Part shown: positions 43,323-52,631 of the stretch, piece by piece
Layout: each line of letters opens with the position of its first letter
Numbering within the stretch: position 1 is the stretch's first letter
Assembly: GCA_029959285.1 (NCBI GenBank)
Contig: JASCOE010000006.1
Coordinates: 238,565 to 302,564 of the forward strand
Direction of reading: 5' to 3'
DNA: 64,000 nucleotides
Source: Flavobacteriaceae bacterium PS02337
GTDB taxonomy: Bacteria; Bacteroidota; Bacteroidia; Flavobacteriales; Flavobacteriaceae
Made by a program: the position numbers and the translations under genes
The notes under the pieces: generated by a model
What the model was told of the DNA's origin: nothing
What the model saw: the letters and a program-made list of their open reading frames with translations, nothing else
Database searches by the model: none

Positions 43323-44381
43323 ATGAAAATAAAAATAATTGGTATTGGGAGTTATATTCCTAATTTAGAAGTAAAAAACACAGACTTTGACAAACATATT
43401 TTTTTGAATGAAGATGGAACTCCATTTGGCTATCCGAACGAAGTCGTTATAAAAAAATTCAAAGGCATTACCGGAATCGAAAATCGACGTTATGCAGAAC
43501 CACAATACACAGCATCAGATTTAGCCTTTTTTGCAGCTCAAAAAGCAATTGCTAATGCAAATATCGATGCAGAAACTTTAGACTATATTATTTTTGCACA
43601 CAACTTTGGCGATGTAAAAACGGGCACACATCAAACGGATATTTTACCAAGTTTAGCAACGCGTGTTAAAAACAAATTAGGAATTAAAAATCCTAAATGT
43701 GTGGCTTACGATATTCTTTTTGGGTGTCCAGGATGGATTGAAGGTGTTCTTCAAGCAAATGCTTTCATCAAATCGGGAATGGCAAAAAGAGTTATGGTAA
43801 TTGGAGCTGAAACCCTTTCAAGAGTTGTTGACGATCACGATCGTGATTCGATGATTTATTCTGATGGAGCGGGAGTTTCTATTTTAGAAGCCTCACCAGA
43901 TGAAGCAGGATTATTGGCTTACGAAAGTGCTACTTACGCTAATGATGAAGCAAATTATCTTTTCTTCGGAAAATCATACAATCCAGAGTTAGATCCAGAC
44001 ATCAAATACATTAAAATGTATGGGCGTAAAATCTACGAATTTGCTTTAAGCAACGTTCCTCTAGCTATGAAAAGCTGTTTGGATAAAAGTGGAATTGCAA
44101 TTGATGAAGTAAAAAAAATCCTAATTCATCAAGCAAACGAAAAAATGGACGAAGCGATTATCGAACGTTTTTACAAACTTTACGATAAAACTGCTCCAAA
44201 AGACATTATGCCAATGAGTATTCATGATTTAGGAAACAGCAGTGTGGCAACAGTTCCAACTTTATACGATTTAATCCTTCAAGGAAAAATTGAAAACCAC
44301 GAAATCAACAAAGGTGATGTTGTTATTTTTGCTTCAGTTGGAGCGGGAATGAACATTAATGCTTTTGTCTACAGATATTAA
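43323..44381 (+). CDS. 3-oxoacyl-ACP synthase III-like thiolase-fold enzyme
   Basis: 352 residues. KAS III fold with the catalytic triad Cys135 (ILFGCPGWIEG), His269 (KILIHQANEKM) and Asn305 (HDLGNSSVAT). The length and the N-terminal insertion (DKHIFLNEDGTPFGYPNE) differ from housekeeping FabH (about 320-330 residues), placing it among the FabH-like ketoacyl-ACP synthases of Bacteroidota that condense acyl groups in specialised or flexirubin-type lipid pathways; no such cluster surrounds it here, so the substrate is open. Monocistronic with its own terminator. Confidence 0.85.
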   Translation: MKIKIIGIGSYIPNLEVKNTDFDKHIFLNEDGTPFGYPNEVVIKKFKGITGIENRRYAEPQYTASDLAFFAAQKAIANANIDAETLDYIIFAHNFGDVKTGTHQTDILPSLATRVKNKLGIKNPKCVAYDILFGCPGWIEGVLQANAFIKSGMAKRVMVIGAETLSRVVDDHDRDSMIYSDGAGVSILEASPDEAGLLAYESATYANDEANYLFFGKSYNPELDPDIKYIKMYGRKIYEFALSNVPLAMKSCLDKSGIAIDEVKKILIHQANEKMDEAIIERFYKLYDKTAPKDIMPMSIHDLGNSSVATVPTLYDLILQGKIENHEINKGDVVIFASVGAGMNINAFVYRY

Positions 44382-44384
44382 TAT

Positions 44385-44439
44385 TCAGTTGCAGTAATCA
44401 GTTGAACAAACTGTAAACTGCGACTTTAAACTGAAAACT
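44385..44439. repeat. Inverted repeat of the CAGTTGCAGTAATCAGTT family
   Basis: TTCAGTTGCAGTAATCAGTT on the left pairs imperfectly with AAACTGTAAACTGCGACT..ACTGAAAAC on the right. It is the same word set as the tandem copies at 19476-19616. Confidence 0.65.
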
Positions 44440-44441
44440 AA

Positions 44442-44473
44442 AAAAAGTCCGCATCCTTAAATGCGGACTTTTT
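44442..44473 (+). terminator. Terminator after the KAS III-like gene
   Basis: A perfect 13-bp stem (AAAAAGTCCGCAT / ATGCGGACTTTTT) with a 6-nt loop. Confidence 0.9.
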
Positions 44474-44475
44474 AG

Positions 44476-44483
44476 TATATTTG
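44476..44483 (+). promoter_or_regulatory. -7 box of the methyltransferase gene
   Basis: TATATTTG immediately follows the terminator and lies 25 nt before the ATG. The -33 position falls inside the terminator stem and has no TTG. Confidence 0.5.
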
Positions 44484-44508
44484 CGCCTTTGTTGTTAAAA
44501 ACTATAAA

Positions 44509-45036
44509 ATGTACGAAAAAACATTTCCGAATAAAAGATTCAAACTTACCTTAGAATTTTTACAAAAACACGTTAGCACATCTGAAACCATTTTTGATTT
44601 TGGCGTACCAAATCCGTTTTCTAAAATAATGGAAGAAAATGGTTATACTGTAAAAAATACAAAAGGCGAAGATTTAGACAACGATCAAACGGCGCTACAA
44701 ACAGAAGATTACACTGTTTTTACTGCATTTGAAATTTTCGAACATTTACTAAATCCATATACAATTTTAGAAAACGTAAAATGCGATAAATTGCTAATTT
44801 CAATTCCTTTACGTTTATGGTTTTCTCCAGCATATCGTTCTAAAACAGATATGTGGGACAGACATTATCATGAATTCGAAGATTGGCAATTAGACTGGCT
44901 TTTAGAAAAAACGGGATGGAAAATTACAGACCGTTTGCAATTTACACATCCGGTAAAAAAGTTGGGCTTGAGACCTTTACTAAGATATTTTACTCCGAGA
45001 TATTATATTGTTGTAGCTGAGAAAATTCATAATTAA
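44509..45036 (+). CDS. Class I SAM-dependent methyltransferase
   Basis: 175 residues. A glycine-poor motif I (IFDFGVPNPFSKIMEENGY), motif II-like GEDLDND and the motif TAFEIFEHLLNPYTIL (typical F-E-H-L post-motif of Methyltransf_11/23 enzymes) followed by LLISIPLRLWFSPAY. The HYHEFEDWQLDWLL segment suggests a small-molecule or lipid-like substrate. It is 24 nt upstream of a glycosyltransferase gene, so it may act on the same envelope glycan. Confidence 0.75.
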   Translation: MYEKTFPNKRFKLTLEFLQKHVSTSETIFDFGVPNPFSKIMEENGYTVKNTKGEDLDNDQTALQTEDYTVFTAFEIFEHLLNPYTILENVKCDKLLISIPLRLWFSPAYRSKTDMWDRHYHEFEDWQLDWLLEKTGWKITDRLQFTHPVKKLGLRPLLRYFTPRYYIVVAEKIHN

Positions 45037-45060
45037 TAATTTACAATTCATAATTATTTT

Positions 45061-45909
45061 ATGAAATATTACATCGTCATTCCCGCGCACAACGAACAAG
45101 ATTTAATTGGCTTAACTTTACAATCATTAGTATCTCAGACAGTTTTGCCATCAAAAGTTGTGGTTGTCAATGACAATTCTACAGATAAAACCGAAGAAGT
45201 TGTATTAAGTTTTGCAAAAGAGAATCCATATATTTCTGTTGTAAACAAAACTTCAGATGCGATTCACTTGCCAGGGAGCAAAGTAATTCAGGCTTTTCAA
45301 AAAGGATTTGAAACGCTGGATTCAGATTATGATATAATTGTAAAAATAGACGGCGATTTAATTTTTCCTTCAAACTATTTCGAAACTATAATCAAACATT
45401 TCGAATCTGATCCAAAAATCGGAATGGTTGGCGGATTTTGCTATATTGATAAAAACGGAGAATGGGTTTTAGAAAATCTCACCGATAAAGATCATATTCG
45501 CGGCGCTCTAAAAGCATACAGAAAAGAAACTTATCAGCAAATTGGAGGTTTAAAACCTGCAATGGGCTGGGATACAGTTGATGAATTATTATGTAAATAT
45601 TACGATTGGAAAATTGTTACAGACCAATCTTTACATGTAAAACATCTTAAACCAACTGGCGCAAACTACAACAAAACAGCTCGCTACAAACAAGGCGAAG
45701 CTTTTTATACTTTAGGTTATGGTTTCTGGATCACGGCAATTGCTTCGGCAAAATTGGCCATTATGAAGAAAAAACCATTTCTATTTTTAGACTATATCAA
45801 AGGATTTTTGAAAGCTAAAAAAGCTAAAACGCCTTTATTAGTCACTCCTGAACAAGCTAAATTTATTAGAAATTATCGTTTACAGAAAATGAAACAAAAG
45901 TTAATTTGA
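45061..45909 (+). CDS. Glycosyltransferase family 2
   Basis: 282 residues, GT-A fold: VIPAHNEQDLIGLTLQSL, VVVNDNSTDKT, and the metal-binding DxD-like IVKIDGDLIFPSNYF, then GGLKPAMGWDTVDELL with the acidic acceptor motif. There is no membrane domain of the processive type, so it transfers single sugars from a nucleotide sugar at the inner membrane. It follows the methyltransferase and precedes the MlaE/MlaF pair after 79 bp. Confidence 0.87.
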   Translation: MKYYIVIPAHNEQDLIGLTLQSLVSQTVLPSKVVVVNDNSTDKTEEVVLSFAKENPYISVVNKTSDAIHLPGSKVIQAFQKGFETLDSDYDIIVKIDGDLIFPSNYFETIIKHFESDPKIGMVGGFCYIDKNGEWVLENLTDKDHIRGALKAYRKETYQQIGGLKPAMGWDTVDELLCKYYDWKIVTDQSLHVKHLKPTGANYNKTARYKQGEAFYTLGYGFWITAIASAKLAIMKKKPFLFLDYIKGFLKAKKAKTPLLVTPEQAKFIRNYRLQKMKQKLI

Positions 45910-45935
45910 TTGGTAAAACAATCGAAAAAGCTGAA

Positions 45936-45956
45936 CTCATAACTCAAAACTCATAA
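45936..45956. repeat. CTCATAACTCAAAACTCATAA repeat word
   Basis: A 21-nt word before the mlaE-like gene matches the terminal inverted repeats of the four-helix-bundle cassette at 48191-48589. A related, weaker sequence (AATTCATAATT twice) lies at about 45026-45057. Confidence 0.75.
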
Positions 45957-45988
45957 CTTCTTTTTACCTTAGCCAATATTTAAAAATT

Positions 45989-46735
45989 ATGATGCTAATT
46001 CGTTATTTATCCCAAATCGGGAGATATTTTTTAATGCTGAAAGAAATTTTCAATAAACAGACCAAATGGCCTGTGATGAAAAGTCTAATTCTAAAAGAAA
46101 TCGATGACCTTATTATTGACTCTCTTGGAATTGTTTGCTTTATCTCTTTTTTCATCGGAGGAGTTGTTGCAATTCAGACAGCACTTAACTTAACTAATCC
46201 ATTAATTCCAAAATATTTAATTGGTTTTGCTACACGTCAATCTGTAATTTTGGAGTTTGCTCCTACTTTTATTTCGGTTATTATGGCCGGAAAAATGGGA
46301 TCTTACATTACTTCAAGTATCGGAACAATGCGTGTTACAGAGCAAATTGATGCCTTAGAAGTTATGGGAGTTAACTCTTTAAACTATCTTGTTTTTCCTA
46401 AAATTGTAGCTTTACTAATGTATCCTTTCGTAATTTGCATTAGTATGTTTTTGGGAATTTTTGGAGGATGGCTTGCTTCTGCTTATGGCGGATTTTCAAC
46501 TAGCGAGGATTTTATTGCTGGAGCTCAAATGGAATTTATCCCTTTTCATATTACATACGCTTTCATTAAAACTTTAATTTTTGCGATGTTGTTAGCGACA
46601 ATTCCTTCTTTTCATGGATATTACATGAAAGGTGGCGCATTAGAAGTTGGTAAAGCAAGTACAGTTTCGTTTGTATGGACATCAGTTTGTATCATTCTTT
46701 TTAATTATATATTAACTCAATTATTATTAGGATAA
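45989..46735 (+). CDS. MlaE-family ABC transporter permease
   Basis: 248 residues with five to six membrane segments and the MlaE/TrgD signature GGVVAIQTALNL, then EFAPTFISVIMAGKMGSYITSSIGTMRVTEQIDALEVMGVNSL. MlaE with MlaF and an MCE-domain protein moves phospholipids between the membranes. The ATPase gene overlaps by one base (TAATG). No MCE (MlaD) gene follows in this window. Confidence 0.92.
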   Translation: MMLIRYLSQIGRYFLMLKEIFNKQTKWPVMKSLILKEIDDLIIDSLGIVCFISFFIGGVVAIQTALNLTNPLIPKYLIGFATRQSVILEFAPTFISVIMAGKMGSYITSSIGTMRVTEQIDALEVMGVNSLNYLVFPKIVALLMYPFVICISMFLGIFGGWLASAYGGFSTSEDFIAGAQMEFIPFHITYAFIKTLIFAMLLATIPSFHGYYMKGGALEVGKASTVSFVWTSVCIILFNYILTQLLLG

Positions 46736-47502
46736 TGATAGAAGTAAAAAACATTGAAAAATCGTTTGGTGACAGCAAAGTTTTAAAAGGCGTTTCGACC
46801 GTTTTTGAAACTGGAAAAACCAACTTGATTATAGGACAAAGTGGATCTGGAAAAACAGTTTTATTAAAAACACTTTTAGGAATTCACACGCCAGATTCAG
46901 GGACAATTGAATTTGACGGAAGAATTTATTCTGACTTAGACAAAGATGAAAAACGTGAATTAAGAACTGAAATCGGAATGGTATTTCAAGGTTCAGCATT
47001 ATTTGATTCAATGACAGTTGCAGAAAACGTAGCTTTCCCGTTGAGAATGTTCACCAATAACACCAAAGCACAAATCAAAGAAAGAGTAGATTTTGTTTTA
47101 GAAAGAGTAAATCTTGTTGAAGCTCACAAAAAATTACCTTCTGAGATTTCTGGAGGAATGCAAAAACGTGTGGCAATTGCCCGTGCGATTGTAAACAATC
47201 CGAAGTATTTATTTTGTGATGAACCAAACTCTGGTCTTGATCCAAATACTTCTACTTTGATTGATAATTTGATTCAGGAAATTACAAAAGAGTATAATAT
47301 TACAACTGTGATTAACACACACGATATGAACTCTGTAATGGAAATTGGTGAAAATATTGTTTTCTTAAAGAAAGGAATAAAAGCTTGGCAAGGAACAAAA
47401 GAAGAAATTTTCGTAACCGATAATAAAGATATCGTCAAATTCGTTTACTCATCAAATCTATTTAAGAAAGTTAGAGAAGCTTATTTAAAAGATATGAAAT
47501 AA
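46735..47502 (+). CDS. MlaF-type ABC transporter ATP-binding protein
   Basis: 255 residues: Walker A IGQSGSGKTVLL, Q-loop MVFQGSALFD, signature SGGMQKRVAIARA (the MlaF/MkI-type SGGMxKR), Walker B YLFCDEPNSGLDP and switch His in VINTHDM. It powers the MlaE permease encoded just upstream. An unusually short C-terminus with a lysine-rich tail is normal for the family. Confidence 0.93.
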   Translation: MIEVKNIEKSFGDSKVLKGVSTVFETGKTNLIIGQSGSGKTVLLKTLLGIHTPDSGTIEFDGRIYSDLDKDEKRELRTEIGMVFQGSALFDSMTVAENVAFPLRMFTNNTKAQIKERVDFVLERVNLVEAHKKLPSEISGGMQKRVAIARAIVNNPKYLFCDEPNSGLDPNTSTLIDNLIQEITKEYNITTVINTHDMNSVMEIGENIVFLKKGIKAWQGTKEEIFVTDNKDIVKFVYSSNLFKKVREAYLKDMK

Positions 47503-47536
47503 TTAAAAAACTCCAATTCTTTGGAAATCTCAAATA

Positions 47537-47584
47537 AAAAAATCCCAAATTCCAACATCATCAAATTGGAATTTGGGATTTTTT
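47537..47584. terminator. Bidirectional terminator between mlaF-like and sprT-like genes
   Basis: A perfect stem of about 19 bp (AAAAAATCCCAAATTCCAA / its complement) with a 10-nt loop sits between the converging genes and reaches into the sprT-like stop codon. Confidence 0.9.
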
Positions 47585-48185
47585 ATTGAACGTTTATCAA
47601 TTCGACTTCAGCATTTGGATTAAAAAGATAAGTCTTTCCAGAACTGATTTCTAAACATTCAAAACGTTTTGTTCTAACAGCTATTTTTTTAAAAACTTTA
47701 CCATTTTTGATTCTAAAAACACTTCCGTAGGGAATTTCGAAAACATAGTTTTTATCATTCTCTTTATCATATTGTTTTAACGCCAAAGATAAAGTTGTAT
47801 CGGTATCGCTACTTGCAGACGGATTCTTGAAATGTCTTGCCAACAATGGTAATATTTGTCCCGGAAATATTTCTGGTCGAATAAACGGAACCATTAAACG
47901 CTGAAAAGTATATTTCCATTCATTTCCGTGCGGTTTTATATTTCTACCAAACTTTTCAAAAGCTACCAAATGTGCAATTTCATGAATCAATGTGATTAAA
48001 AATCTATATTTATTCAAACTTGCATTAACAGTAATTTCATGTTTTCCACTTGGCCCGCGTCGATAATCACCGTGACGCGTCTGACGCTCGTTTACGATTT
48101 TCAAATGAACCTGATTGGCCACTATCAAATCAAAAACGGGTTTTACCGCATGTTCTGGAATGTATTTAGCTAAAGTTTCGCTCAA
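47583..48185 (-). CDS. SprT-like zinc metallopeptidase domain protein
   Basis: 200 residues. The zincin motif LIHEIAHLVAF (His68, Glu69, His72) with a third His in IKPHGNEWKYTFQRL (His86) is the SprT/Spartan pattern. The C-terminal part (VFEIPYGSVFRIKNGKVFKKIAVRTKRFEC) resembles the zinc-ribbon-like region of SprT but keeps only one clear Cys, so the ribbon may be lost. Likely cytosolic; Spartan relatives act on DNA-protein crosslinks, but the bacterial role is unproven. Confidence 0.82.
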   Translation of the reverse strand: MSETLAKYIPEHAVKPVFDLIVANQVHLKIVNERQTRHGDYRRGPSGKHEITVNASLNKYRFLITLIHEIAHLVAFEKFGRNIKPHGNEWKYTFQRLMVPFIRPEIFPGQILPLLARHFKNPSASSDTDTTLSLALKQYDKENDKNYVFEIPYGSVFRIKNGKVFKKIAVRTKRFECLEISSGKTYLFNPNAEVELINVQ

Positions 48186-48190
48186 TTTAG

Positions 48191-48589
48191 TTATGAATTA
48201 TGAGTTTTGAGTTATGAGTTTTTTCTTTGACGTTATAATTATGCTTTTTATGATTTTCAGAACTTCTTCACATTGCTTGTGCATGGATTCAAATTCAGCA
48301 ATAGTAATATAATTTGTTGCAATTAATATTTCTAACCAATACATTGATTCATTACATTCTTTCTGAGAAATAGACAATTTATGTATAAAATCAGGCTTAC
48401 TTTGCGCATTGACAGCTTCACGAACATTCGCGCCAACAGAGGTAATTGAACGTAAAAATTGTTTACTCATTACAAATTCCTTCCTTTCTGCAACTAGCCA
48501 TTTATAAAAATTAACCCCTCTTACAGCCAACTCAAAACTTTTAGTTTTCACAATACTCTCACTCATAATTCAAAACTCATAATTCATAA
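48191..48589. mobile_element. Putative minimal mobile cassette: four-helix-bundle gene inside 28-bp terminal inverted repeats
   Basis: The left end (48191-48218, TTATGAATTATGAGTTTTGA..) and the right end (48562-48589, ..AAAACTCATAATTCATAA) are inverted copies with one mismatch in 28. The only gene inside uses a start codon located in the right repeat and a stop codon located in the left repeat, so its last six residues are encoded by the repeat. A stray copy of the repeat word lies at 45936-45956. No transposase is present, so any mobility would be in trans. Confidence 0.6.
48198..48566 (-). CDS. Four-helix bundle protein (S23 / 23S rRNA intervening-sequence family)
   Basis: 122 residues of four amphipathic helices with the family pattern SFELAVRGVNFYKWLVAERKEF, QFLRSITSVGANVREAVNAQSK, FIHKLSISQKECNESMYWLEIL. 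The family was first noted as an ORF in 23S rRNA intervening sequences and its fold is shared with the accessory protein Avd of diversity-generating retroelements; the function of standalone copies is unknown. The gene sits between terminal inverted repeats and separates sprT-like from SDR genes that share its orientation. Confidence 0.9.
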   Translation of the reverse strand: MSESIVKTKSFELAVRGVNFYKWLVAERKEFVMSKQFLRSITSVGANVREAVNAQSKPDFIHKLSISQKECNESMYWLEILIATNYITIAEFESMHKQCEEVLKIIKSIIITSKKKLITQNS

Positions 48590-48593
48590 TTGT

Positions 48594-49271
48594 TTACGGA
48601 TTCGTTGAAGAGACTTCTAAAACTTTTCCGTTAAAATATTTATTTCCGTTAAGAGTAAAATCATAAATATAAGTTGCCATTCCTTCTGCAGAAATTGGAG
48701 CTTGATAACCTGGGAAAGCTTCGTTAAGCATTTCAGTCTGAACTGAACCTAAAGCTAGAACATTAAACGAAATTCCTTTTTCTTTATATTCTTCTGCAAG
48801 CAATTCAGTTAAAGTAATTACAGCTCCTTTACTTGAACTATAAGCGGCTAATCCCGCAAATTTCAAGCTTCCGCGAACACCGCCAATTGAACTGATCGTT
48901 ACAACATGACTTCCTTTTTCTAAATACGGAATACAGATTCTAGTAAGATTAGCAACTGCAAAAACATTCACTTTGTAAATACTTTCAAAATCTGCTTGAG
49001 TTGTTTCTGCAAAAGGTTTCAAAAGTAAAGCACCTGCATTATGAACAACAGCATCAACTTTTTTCCAAGTTGAAGAAAGAAAACTTTCTACTTCTGTCAA
49101 AGCTGTTTCATCTGCCAAATCAATAGATAAGCAAGTTATATTTTGATGTTCTAAAAGTGTTTTAGGTATTTTTCTAGAAATGGCTAAAACCTTATTTCCT
49201 GCATTTGCAAATTGCAAAGCCAATTCATAACCAATTCCTCTGCTTGTTCCGGTAACAATAATATTTTTCAT
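48594..49271 (-). CDS. SDR family NAD(P)-dependent oxidoreductase
   Basis: 225 residues: cofactor loop TGTSRGIGYELAL, NNAG variant VVHNAGALLL, catalytic Ser in ISSIGG and YSSSKGAV (YxxxK). Classical short-chain dehydrogenase of about 225-250 residues; the substrate cannot be read from sequence. Expressed from a TATTTTTG box 4 nt before the ATG; followed by the four-helix cassette. Confidence 0.88.
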   Translation of the reverse strand: MKNIIVTGTSRGIGYELALQFANAGNKVLAISRKIPKTLLEHQNITCLSIDLADETALTEVESFLSSTWKKVDAVVHNAGALLLKPFAETTQADFESIYKVNVFAVANLTRICIPYLEKGSHVVTISSIGGVRGSLKFAGLAAYSSSKGAVITLTELLAEEYKEKGISFNVLALGSVQTEMLNEAFPGYQAPISAEGMATYIYDFTLNGNKYFNGKVLEVSSTNP

Positions 49272-49275
49272 GCAA

Positions 49276-49283
49276 CAAAAATA
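49276..49283 (-). promoter_or_regulatory. -7 box of the SDR gene (leaderless layout)
   Basis: On the minus strand TATTTTTG ends exactly 4 nt before the ATG at 49271. The -33 region falls in the end of the M28 gene and has no TTG. Confidence 0.5.
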
Positions 49284-49306
49284 ATCAAATGCTGTAAAAT
49301 GACCTC

Positions 49307-50284
49307 TTATTTATTCATGGTAATTTCCTGTGTCGGCGAAACTGCAATTTTGGTTACAGCAGGCAATAATTCTTGTGTGAATGCCGTAATATGCGGAATG
49401 TCCATCACTTTAAATTCGTCTGAAACATGGTGATAAAAATCGAAGTTTTCAAAATCAAAAGTACTTATTGATTGACAAGGTTTTTTGAAAACATCATAAA
49501 ATGAATAATTATCAGATCTGTAAAACAATTCATATTCGGCTTCTTTTGGTAAAAATCCGATGGTATTTTTTCCTGTATATTCGTTTATTTTAGACGCCAT
49601 ATTCGATTTATCAAAACCTGTAATGTATGCCAAATAATCTCTTTTCATCGGAACACCAATCATTTCGATATTTAATTGTGTGTAAAGATTAAAATCTTGC
49701 TTTTTCAATTTCTGAACTAAACTTTTTGAACCTAACAATCCCTTTTCTTCTCCAGCAAAAAACACAACCAATATACTGCGTTTGTTTGTTTTTGTTTTAG
49801 CAAAATATTTCGCCATTGCGGCAACAGATGTTACGCCAGAAGCATCATCATTAGCACCATTATTAATTTTATCAGCTTGTTCCTTTTTCTCAATTCCGAT
49901 ATGATCATAGTGCGCGCTTAGAACCACAAATTCTTTTTTTAATTCAGGGTCTGTTCCTTCTATTACTCCAACGATATTAAAAGCTGGAGATTTAAAATTA
50001 GTCAACGTATCGCGATAAGTTTTAAAATAAGGTTTAATGTTGTTTTTCTTTAAAAAATCTTCTAAAAAAACTGCCGCTTTTTCGATTCCTTTTGTTCCTG
50101 TTTCGCGTCCTTCTAATTCATCTGAAGAAAGATATTTTAAGAAATCTGAAATTTCAGTTTCACTTACTTTGTAATTAACTTCAATTTGTTTTGAATCTGA
50201 TTTTGAATCTTTTTCGACATTAACTGTTGTACTGGATTTACACGCGAATAAAATGAACGGAAGTAAAAAGTATAGTTTTTTCAT
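49307..50284 (-). CDS. M28-family metallopeptidase lipoprotein
   Basis: 325 residues. Lipoprotein signal MKKLYFLLPFILFAC. Zinc ligands of M28: LSAHYDHIG, NGANDDASGV, VFFAGEEKGLLGS, YHHVSDEF. Family members are secreted aminopeptidases. The C-terminal tail is about 25 residues beyond the last ligand. It lies upstream of the SDR gene on the same strand. Confidence 0.9.
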   Translation of the reverse strand: MKKLYFLLPFILFACKSSTTVNVEKDSKSDSKQIEVNYKVSETEISDFLKYLSSDELEGRETGTKGIEKAAVFLEDFLKKNNIKPYFKTYRDTLTNFKSPAFNIVGVIEGTDPELKKEFVVLSAHYDHIGIEKKEQADKINNGANDDASGVTSVAAMAKYFAKTKTNKRSILVVFFAGEEKGLLGSKSLVQKLKKQDFNLYTQLNIEMIGVPMKRDYLAYITGFDKSNMASKINEYTGKNTIGFLPKEAEYELFYRSDNYSFYDVFKKPCQSISTFDFENFDFYHHVSDEFKVMDIPHITAFTQELLPAVTKIAVSPTQEITMNK

Positions 50285-50368
50285 GGTTTTATATTGAATT
50301 GGTTTTGTTTTTTAATGAAAAGCAACTTGAAAGCATAAACTTATGAAAAGTAAAAGAATATTCATAAA

Positions 50369-50402
50369 AAAACCCTTTCAAACTAAAATCTGAAAGGGTT
50401 TA
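50369..50402. terminator. Terminator between acyl-CoA dehydrogenase and M28 genes
   Basis: A stem of about 12 bp (AAACCCTTTCA / TGAAAGGGTTT plus flanking A-T) with a 10-nt loop lies 21 nt downstream of the acyl-CoA dehydrogenase stop (minus strand). Confidence 0.85.
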
Positions 50403-50422
50403 ATCTATATTTATAAAATGAA

Positions 50423-51565
50423 TTATCCAGCGATAACCGATCTTGAAATTACAATTTTCTGAATTTCTGAAGTTCCTTCGTAAATCTGAGTAATTTTTGC
50501 ATCGCGCATGAAACGCTCCACGTGATATTCTTTTACATATCCATTTCCTCCGTGAATTTGAACCGCTTCAACAGCAGTGTCCATAGCAACTTGCGAAGCA
50601 AATAATTTCGCCATTGCGCCACTTACGTCGTAATTTTTATGTTGGTCTTTATCCCAAGCTGCTTTCATACATAAATGACGAGCCGCTTCGATATTTACAG
50701 CCATATCCGCCAATTTGAAAGCAATCGCTTGATGATTACAGATTTCTGTTCCAAAAGCTTTACGTTCTTTAGAATATTTCAAAGCCAATTCGTAAGCTCC
50801 AGATGCAATTCCTAATGCTTGAGAAGCAATTCCGATTCTACCGCCGGCAAGCGTTTTCATTGCAAATTTAAATCCGAAACCATCTTCTCCAATTCTATTT
50901 TCTTTTGGAACTTTCACATCAGAAAACATTAAAGAATGTGTATCAGAACCACGAATTCCCATTTTTTGCTCTTTAGGACCAACTGAAAAACCTGGCATAT
51001 CTTTCGTCATAATTAAAGCATTAATTCCTTTATGCTTTAACTCTGGATGCGTTTGTGCAATTACTAAATATACAGAAGCTGTGTTTCCGTTTGTAATCCA
51101 GTTTTTGGTTCCATTTACCAAGTAATGATCTCCCATGTCAATCGCGGTAGTTTTTTGCGAAGTTGCATCACTTCCCGCTTCCGGCTCACTTAAACAAAAT
51201 GCTCCATGAATTTCTCCAGATGCTAAACCTGGTAAATATTTTTGTTTTTGCTCTTCCGTTCCGAATTCTTGTAATCCCCAACAAACCAGAGAATTATTTA
51301 CAGACATTACTACAGAAGCTGAAGCATCGACTTTAGAAATTTCTTCCATTGCAATAATATAAGAAATGGCATCTAGACCGCTTCCTCCGTATTTTGGGTC
51401 CACCATCATTCCCATAAATCCAAGCTCACCCATTTTTTTGACTTGCTCCGTAGGGAAAATTTGTTTTTCGTCACGTTCAATAACTCCCGGTAATAATTCA
51501 TTTTGAGCAAAATCTCTCGCTGCCTGCTGAATCATTAAATGTTCTTCGGTAAGATTAAAATCCAT
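50423..51565 (-). CDS. Acyl-CoA dehydrogenase (short/branched-chain type)
   Basis: The start at MDFNLTEEHLM is preferred to a Met ten codons upstream because family members begin there. 380 residues: FAD-binding CLSEPEAGSD and NWITNG, and the catalytic Glu in QIYEGTSEIQ near the end. It oxidises acyl-CoA to enoyl-CoA in the cytosol; the EGTSEIQ Glu position is that of short-chain and butyryl-type enzymes, but chain length is not certain. Monocistronic. Confidence 0.93.
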   Translation of the reverse strand: MDFNLTEEHLMIQQAARDFAQNELLPGVIERDEKQIFPTEQVKKMGELGFMGMMVDPKYGGSGLDAISYIIAMEEISKVDASASVVMSVNNSLVCWGLQEFGTEEQKQKYLPGLASGEIHGAFCLSEPEAGSDATSQKTTAIDMGDHYLVNGTKNWITNGNTASVYLVIAQTHPELKHKGINALIMTKDMPGFSVGPKEQKMGIRGSDTHSLMFSDVKVPKENRIGEDGFGFKFAMKTLAGGRIGIASQALGIASGAYELALKYSKERKAFGTEICNHQAIAFKLADMAVNIEAARHLCMKAAWDKDQHKNYDVSGAMAKLFASQVAMDTAVEAVQIHGGNGYVKEYHVERFMRDAKITQIYEGTSEIQKIVISRSVIAG

Positions 51566-51674
51566 AATTATATACTTTAATTGTTTTTCAACCAAATTTC
51601 AAGATGATCCGTTTAGTTGATGGTTCTGTTTTTTTGTGTTTTTTTGGTGCCCGATTTTCTAATGCAAAGGCTTC

Positions 51675-51705
51675 CAAAGATACTTTTTAAAAGTGTAATT
51701 TACAA
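51675..51705 (-). promoter_or_regulatory. Promoter of the acyl-CoA dehydrogenase gene
   Basis: On the minus strand: TTG (51705-51703), 20 bp, TATCTTTG (51682-51675), a full consensus match. It predicts a leader of about 105 nt. Confidence 0.65.
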
Positions 51706-52021
51706 TGCGCGCATATAAAATTAATAGATCAGCAAAGATTACGATAACGTTTTCGTAATTATTTAGCTTTTGATGAAAATGAAAGTAAATTTCGCAACAA
51801 AAACTCTAATTTTTAAGAATCATATTAGTACTCTGAAAACATCGCAAAATCTTCACAATTGACAAGCTTTTAAAGTCAAAAAGTTAAACAATTCTTAAAA
51901 CGCGTAAAAGTACGTAAAACAACTCTTACTAATTTGATTTTTAATGTAATACAAAAATTAACCTTAAAATCGCCTAGAAAAAAACATTCTAAAAATGATC
52001 GAAATATTGATAAATTAACAT
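51706..52021. other. AT-rich intergenic stretch without recognisable gene
   Basis: Between the acyl-CoA dehydrogenase promoter and the chalcone-isomerase-like gene I see no ORF, repeat or dyad longer than about 8 bp. A short CGATAACGTTTTCG palindromic piece lies at about 51740-51755. Confidence 0.5.
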
Positions 52022-52029
52022 TATTTTTG
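52022..52029 (+). promoter_or_regulatory. -7 box of the chalcone-isomerase-like gene
   Basis: TATTTTTG fits TAnnTTTG; 26 nt before the ATG. The nearest TTG is 12 bp upstream, too close for a -33. Confidence 0.45.
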
Positions 52030-52055
52030 CCTTAAAAATAAATAATTGATAGAAT

Positions 52056-52631
52056 ATGAAAAAGATTTTACTTTTACTAACATTGCTTTTAAGCTTACAA
52101 TTTTCGACCGTTTCGGCACAAACTCAAATCGAAGTTAACGGTGTAAATGTTCCTAGAAAAATAGATTTTCAAGGGAAATCTTTACAACTTAATGGCGCGG
52201 GTGGAAGATCAAAAATGTGGTTAGAAGTTTATGTGCAAGCATTGTATTTATCACAGTTAAGCCAAGATCCGCAATTTATAATCGATAGTGATACAGAAAT
52301 GGCTGTTAGAATTGAAATCACTTCTTCGATTGTTTCTTCTAACAAATTGACAAAAGCAATGAATACAGGTTTTGAAAAATCTGCTGGAGCAAATCTGGAA
52401 CAATTACGTCCAAGAATTGAGCAGTTAAAAAGTTTTCTTAGCGATGTTATTACAGAAAAAGATGTTTTTGTTATAGCTTACAATCCTTTAGATCAAAATG
52501 TTTACGTTAGTAAAAATGAAGTCTTAAAAGGAAAAATTCCAGGATTTGATTTCAAAAAAGCATTATTTGGAATCTGGCTTTCTGACAAACCAGTTGATGA
52601 AACTTTGAAAAAACATTTATTAGGACAATAA
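52056..52631 (+). CDS. Chalcone-isomerase-like secreted protein
   Basis: 191 residues with a signal peptide ending VSAQ, followed by the chalcone isomerase-like fold: EVNGVNVPRKIDFQGKSLQLNGAGGRSKMWLEVYVQALYL, and the C-terminal ALFGIWLSDKPVDETLKKHLLG. Bacterial members (PF16036) are periplasmic and usually bind fatty acids or are of unknown function rather than being flavonoid enzymes. Monocistronic with its own terminator. Confidence 0.85.
   Translation: MKKILLLLTLLLSLQFSTVSAQTQIEVNGVNVPRKIDFQGKSLQLNGAGGRSKMWLEVYVQALYLSQLSQDPQFIIDSDTEMAVRIEITSSIVSSNKLTKAMNTGFEKSAGANLEQLRPRIEQLKSFLSDVITEKDVFVIAYNPLDQNVYVSKNEVLKGKIPGFDFKKALFGIWLSDKPVDETLKKHLLGQ

Follow-up and report, generated by a model that had tools for sequence, protein, structure and literature searches.

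In REPIN/RAYT systems, a gene is flanked by its own short repeat and gene-less copies of the repeat are dispersed; the repeats are REP palindromes, and RAYT is a HUH protein. Accounts of these REPIN/RAYT (TnpA-REP) systems, available here in part, are given in PMC3116915, PMC8266576 and PMC8049555. In the 23S rRNA intervening sequence (IVS) of Coxiella burnetii, an S23p open reading frame (ORF) lies inside a 28-bp terminal stem, with tandem heptads (GACAGAT) of strain-dependent copy number just before the S23p ATG; RNase III cleaves at the first heptad, and a solved S23 relative is a pentamer, according to the available part of the source (PMC4990558). Arrays of TAACTGA and other heptads are found between genes in Beggiatoaceae, Cyanobacteria and some Bacteroidetes, with indels mostly in steps of 7 (PMC4679880, available part). 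The main text of PMC4679880 contains none of the terms ‘four helix’, ‘23S’ and ‘S23’, and the available parts of PMC4990558 and PMC4679880 do not join the S23 IVS heptads to the TAACTGA arrays. Among the literature matches listed, none connects heptad arrays with S23 genes located outside rRNA, subscription journals being mostly outside the scope of the search.

The window analysed here is a stretch of 64,000 nucleotides (G000:C53:238565-302564) from a genome of 5.70 Mb. It contains an S23/IVP gene with inverted repeat arms, placed between two protein genes and outside any 23S rRNA gene (Table 1).

Table 1. Coordinates of the S23/IVP cassette, its neighbours and a lone array in the window.
Feature	Position	Strand	Basis
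S23/IVP four-helix-bundle ORF, 122 aa, ATG start, TAA stop	48198..48566	-	PF05635 E 2.6e-26; TIGR02436 E 2.2e-28
Arm 1, upstream heptad array, carries the start codon	48561..48589	-	arm comparison
Arm 2, downstream heptad array, inverted copy; carries the stop codon and encodes LITQNS	48191..48219	+	arm comparison
Lone three-unit array of the window heptad, without a gene	45937..45957	-	
Short-chain dehydrogenase (SDR), upstream neighbour; stop codon 4 bp from arm 1	48594..49271	-	PF00106 E 2.7e-41
SprT-like gene, downstream neighbour; listed start 5 bp from arm 2	47583..48185	-	PF10263 E 1.2e-9

The arms match at 28 of 29 positions (97% complementary, one mismatch) and are 341 nt apart. An earlier note on this DNA, made from the letters alone, had described paired ends with one mismatch over 28 nt; the pairing stands, with a length of 29 nt. 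Its reading of a four-helix-bundle gene with the ATG (48564-48566) in one arm, the TAA (48198-48200) in the other and a repeat-encoded LITQNS agrees with the domain matches and coordinates, and its stray copy of the repeat is present as three units on the minus strand, shifted by one position from the 45936-45956 given there. Its description of the ends as TIR-like has to be replaced, since they are heptad arrays instead of classical TIRs: each window arm consists of four tandem heptads of the form RTTWTGA, and the gene strand of arm 1, extended by base 48590, reads ATTATGA-ATTATGA-GTTTTGA-ATTATGA. The inverted-flank score of the window gene is 26.5, compared with 21.5 for the highest of 633 control genes. 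PF05635 (residues 4-107 of 122) is the sole domain found in the protein by Pfam, and its solved relatives are 2RLD (E 8.7e-37) and 2GSC (E 0.022), with five chains each. A scan of 44000-52500 against Rfam gave no match at the gathering score.

Inverted arms are a general trait of PF05635 genes. All seven such genes in this genome are flanked by inverted short tandem repeats (by eye), and in a 7 x 7 matrix of upstream against downstream flanks the own partner flank is the best match in 7/7 rows. The earlier note had suggested a search for the same ends at other four-helix-bundle genes; the six others do have inverted short-repeat arms, but the repeat unit differs for each of the seven genes and is mostly 7 or 8 bp. 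An inverted score of at least 14 is reached by 25/40 S23 gene calls and by 13/633 other genes (p 2.9e-18), the calls coming from the window and another 39 stretches, each some 20 kb long, found with a profile of 36 seeds that included two wrong long ORFs, and one call (3 kb, L111) being false. Direct-repeat scores of the same 40 S23 gene calls do not differ from those of the 633 controls. A cleaned profile of 34 seeds was used for the tests of lag, of protein identity against repeat similarity, and of orientation. In the cleaned set of 113 genes, the only lags between 3 and 15 with raised self-similarity of the flanks are 7 (p 1e-20) and 14 (p 3e-16). Strict intergenic arrays in a 0.58-Mb sample of this genome have a period of 7 (n=20), 8 (n=11), 6 (n=4) or 9 (n=1), with none at period 5 or 10.

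S23/IVP genes are present in 157/198 sampled genomes of the phylum (taken as Bacteroidota), and the pattern extends beyond it. A named set comprised the best 80 of at least 582 relatives, 77 of them scorable after 3 with short or N flanks were dropped; phylum labels were assigned from record titles, and many records are metagenome-assembled genomes (MAGs) that may be misplaced. A score of 14 is reached by 31/45 S23 genes of Bacteroidota (neighbours 8/227) and by 26/32 of other groups (neighbours 8/183), or by 16/410 neighbouring genes overall, and period 7 is present both inside and outside Bacteroidota. By record title, the latter set includes Clostridia, Acidobacteria, Desulfobacteraceae, Phycisphaerae, Nitrospirae, Anaerolineae, Elusimicrobia, KSB1 and candidate phyla, while Opitutaceae, Omnitrophota, Daviesbacteria and Moranbacteria are among those below the cut-off. 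Repeats of AG at one phase of seven occur in 41/63 arms (shuffled arms: mean 3.3, maximum 9), the runner-up dinucleotide at a fixed phase being GT (26/63 arms); on the gene strand, the upstream arm has more AG than CT in 53 cases and more CT than AG in 5. The common heptad grammar is often AGnnnnn, with AG fixed and five positions free. The Coxiella heptad GACAGAT fits it, the window unit RTTWTGA matches only where R is G, and the AG excess in the genus set is slight (observed/expected 1.14). AT-rich low-complexity words inflate repeat counts, and many of the named records are MAGs, yet chance or an assembly artefact is hardly credible as the source of the pattern, since all three controls (other genes, shuffled arms and reversed motifs) gave values close to background, and gene and arms are kept together at the window site in 20/30 loci compared.

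The heptad follows the protein, also across non-syntenic sites. Among 109 genes in 32 synteny clusters (113 genes before length and edge drops), repeat similarity averages 0.34 in non-syntenic pairs whose proteins are at least 70% identical (45 pairs), compared with 0.08 to 0.09 in those below 40%. Proteins with 68-73% identity to that of the window cassette, enclosed by arms with a unit of the same type, are encoded at other sites, between thioesterase and thiolase genes (L115, L116) and between polysaccharide-synthesis and methyltransferase genes (L117); the DNA similarity of these cassettes to that of the window is 72-76% over about 410 bp and stops at the arms. Another genome (G146, L118:1988-3747) carries two cassettes that are 95.9% identical over 411 bp, array to array, on either side of a RhuM gene; all three lie in a type III restriction locus, with the methylase gene at one side and the helicase gene at the other. 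Since the cassettes are 1.4 kb apart, they represent a local duplicate. The S23 gene and its arms are a single unit, and the window heptad is unique among the seven S23 genes of its genome and resembles those of close relatives at other sites.

Gene-less arrays of the same heptads were counted in 150 genomes of the genus, the counts including cassette arms and overlapping matches within one array. At least three matches to the three-unit RTTATGA pattern are found in 22/24 genomes with a window-type gene and in 28/126 without (p 1e-10); the forward pattern occurs in 74 genomes, and the reversed control gave 20 matches in 6 of 150. A window-type gene was defined by at least 63% identity (24 genomes), so that G010, at 62%, was scored as lacking it, and G097 (56%, RTTATGA arms, 74 matches) was scored as lacking it in the raw tests and as having it in the paired test. 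ATKGTRA arrays likewise occur in 9/16 genomes with an L139-type gene and in 10/134 without (p 8e-6). The two associations are cross-linked, RTTATGA with the L139 type (10/16 vs 40/134, p 0.011) and ATKGTRA with the window type (11/24 vs 8/126, p 6e-6), and six genomes have both gene types. When both types are entered in one model, the effect of the matching type exceeds that of the other (t 8.0 vs 2.0 for RTTATGA and 6.4 vs 3.6 for ATKGTRA), and the array balance tracks the gene type in the 28 genomes with a single type (p 7e-4). Phylogenetic pairing left the direction of the link unchanged, with 3.9 same and 0 opposite of 6 at a threshold of at least 3 matches (p 0.125, not significant) and 1.5 same and 0 opposite at a threshold of at least 5 (p 0.5).

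Intergenic repeats might also spread by themselves in an AT-rich genome and carry S23 genes as harmless passengers, a reading that we regard as quite improbable. Inverted repeats are indeed plentiful, in 193/312 intergenic regions of the 0.58-Mb sample, and 17/188 gene-less intergenic inverted repeats match this genome's own S23 units. Dispersed-repeat matches average 2.4 per S23 flank against 0.15 per shuffled reference; however, 120 other genes of this genome have a comparable number of such matches in their flanks (mean 2.2, against 2.4 for the seven S23 genes), which weakened dispersal as a proof of mobility. Small GIY-YIG genes also lie among repeats, with an inverted score of at least 14 in 7/13 (13 scorable of 30 loci; direct score median 34), and window-type arms surround an unrelated ORF in one relative (below). 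The passenger reading is opposed by the rarity of two-sided matching arms in ordinary genes (13/633), by the absence of period 7 from GIY-YIG flanks (p 0.89; 13 loci), by the extension of the pattern beyond Bacteroidota, and by the heptad tracking the protein. GIY-YIG as a partner nuclease of the S23 cassettes was dropped as a candidate, its flanks being without period 7 with 13/30 loci scorable.

Other repeats were observed besides. The small GIY-YIG genes of the phylum (L335-L364; L078:8038-8322) have different flanking repeats, several of them GTCATYC-type palindromes. Further families of dispersed intergenic inverted repeats with low lag-7 similarity (GTCATTGCGAGGAACGAAGCAA, GCCACGAATTTCACGAATT and others) are present in L215-L234, L095-L100 and the window. 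At 47537-47584 of the window, the convergent ABC-type and SprT-like genes have between them a 19-bp inverted repeat that is perfect and has a loop of 10 nt. It probably terminates transcription in both directions, and the genome has similar copies at other places (e.g. L099:2258-2345).

The orientation of the cassettes is biased. Of 101 S23 genes (109 before removal of those without a neighbour on one side), 96 are co-directional with both neighbours, as are 26/28 synteny clusters, compared with 183/363 controls (p 4e-6); median gaps to the two neighbours are 38 and 33 bp. In the named set it is found in Bacteroidota (43/45 vs 136/216 controls) and only weakly elsewhere (19/30 vs 75/177, p 0.027). 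The cassettes thus sit in the sense direction within likely operons, a tendency that is strong in Bacteroidota.

Such placement would also suit a non-mobile regulatory or RNA-processing module, in which the arms pair and hide the start codon, RNase III cuts, S23 autoregulates through the heptads, and arrays change by slippage or recombination only. The arms of the window do pair in the predicted fold of its transcript, RNase III cuts a heptad-stem 23S rRNA IVS at the first heptad (available part of PMC4990558), and one relative has an intergenic region that differs in length by a single unit (415 vs 408 bp). Nevertheless, we consider a module of this kind unlikely. The predicted transcript is only modestly more stable than shuffled sequences (z -1.89, 3/100 shuffles as stable), and mismatches between arms are not in excess as G-U over A-C (71 wobble vs 82 anti-wobble); with no such asymmetry, there is no sign of selection for RNA pairing. 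The module also leaves unexplained the similar gene and heptad at non-syntenic sites and the array-to-array duplicate.

The window site itself varies among relatives. The earlier note had proposed to look for an empty site between the sprT-like and SDR genes, and of 51 related genomes, 21 have a full site and 30 an empty one (147/150 genomes had a match; the 51 are the 30 best matches, 20 picked from the same list, and L119). As that note had expected of a cassette, the gene is not at the same site in all relatives, and the repeats are not unrelated to such genes. On a sequence tree of the two neighbours, 10 changes between full and empty are needed, at least 6 of them forced by well-supported branches. 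Several sites retain what look by eye like remnants: the empty site of L239 has a 109-bp deleted cassette with both arms and the first codons, L235 and L248 have single-arm remnants, the latter beside a full sister (L026, support 88), and some empty sites hold arrays of other heptads. Between rsgA and dtd, L191 and L212 are internally deleted cassettes with both ends kept (by eye). Between hisA and hisF, G010 has an S23 gene with weak arms (score 11.5), L163 a putative other S23 gene (by eye), and L159 and L175 a 0-bp junction. The full/empty data fit gain or loss alike, and the two directions are not separable by them. Many empty sites resemble losses with footprints when viewed by eye, and the changes at the site may be mostly losses.

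Two loci differ in content. At hisA-hisF in the his operon of L161 and L174, a different small ORF, putatively NIPSNAP-like by eye, takes the place that an S23 cassette or pairs of arms without a gene have in relatives. In L044:997-1521, an unrelated ORF of 174 aa with no match in Pfam lies inside window-type arms at the SDR/SprT-like site; the cargo may have been swapped there.

The earlier note had also proposed that gene and ends move as a unit. The unity is borne out by the 411-bp array-to-array copies and the similar heptads at non-syntenic sites; movement as such found no direct sign, in target duplications, in another protein domain or in a recent unlinked duplicate. Target-site duplications are not above chance in 22 clusters (the longest shared word averages 0.82, against 0.70 with sd 0.31 by chance), a test that is weak since array ends are fuzzy. 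No recent unlinked duplicate was found in 43 of 115 places in eight copy-rich genomes (50 loci were compared, 7 being places already covered). An identical pair at two addresses in G338 was set aside as probably a contig-end overlap.

Overall, the window cassette is probably an IVS-like insertion element between protein genes, with one S23/IVP gene inside inverted, lineage-specific heptad arrays, and this suggests an overlooked kind of inserted element. It is likened to an IVS because the available part of PMC4990558 describes an S23p ORF, a 28-bp stem and heptads inside 23S rRNA. In such an element, read-through from the host operon would express the S23 gene, the protein may bind the heptads of its own cassette, in DNA or RNA form, and so help to maintain or spread the arrays, and the transcribed arms could pair with each other like those of 23S rRNA IVSs; host enzymes would perform the cutting and joining. 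Both the binding of heptads by S23 and the movement of the cassette are what we infer from the sequences.

More tentatively, S23/IVP might supply the protein side of a widespread system in which proteins recognise heptads, where each lineage has its own word, often AGnnnnn, read as DNA or RNA, and cassettes and gene-less arrays are thereby kept and spread through the operons of many phyla. The 23S rRNA IVSs would then be a special case that landed in rRNA, and the orphan heptad arrays of cyanobacteria and Beggiatoaceae would be relics; we hold this wider scheme possible rather than probable. S23/IVP genes are common and without a settled function, and a repeat matched to the gene is a concrete candidate ligand. 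Three puzzles could be united in this way: the intervening sequences of rRNA, the orphan heptad arrays and the small genes that lie between operon genes.

Compared with known systems, the S23 cassettes share internally deleted copies (L239, L191 and L212, by eye) with IS elements and MITEs that have TIRs, but show no target-site duplication above chance in the 22 clusters with their fuzzy ends. Avd of diversity-generating retroelements belongs to a related protein family (PMC10053308, available part); unlike in those elements, neither gene adjacent to the window S23 gene is a reverse transcriptase, the two being SprT-like and SDR by Pfam. As in REPIN/RAYT systems, the gene lies between inverted copies of its own repeat and gene-less copies exist in addition; however, S23 is a four-helix bundle in which PF05635 alone and no HUH (Y1) transposase domain was found, and its repeats are heptad arrays instead of REP palindromes. 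The TAACTGA arrays are likewise intergenic tandem heptads, and the reverse complement of their unit fits AGnnnnn, whereas they are direct, with one inverted (PMC4679880, available part). With the 23S rRNA IVS, the window element shares one S23/IVP ORF within terminal inverted repeats; it differs in that it lies between protein genes and both of its arms are arrays, and the S23 cassettes differ in that the unit varies by gene and gene-less arrays are dispersed.
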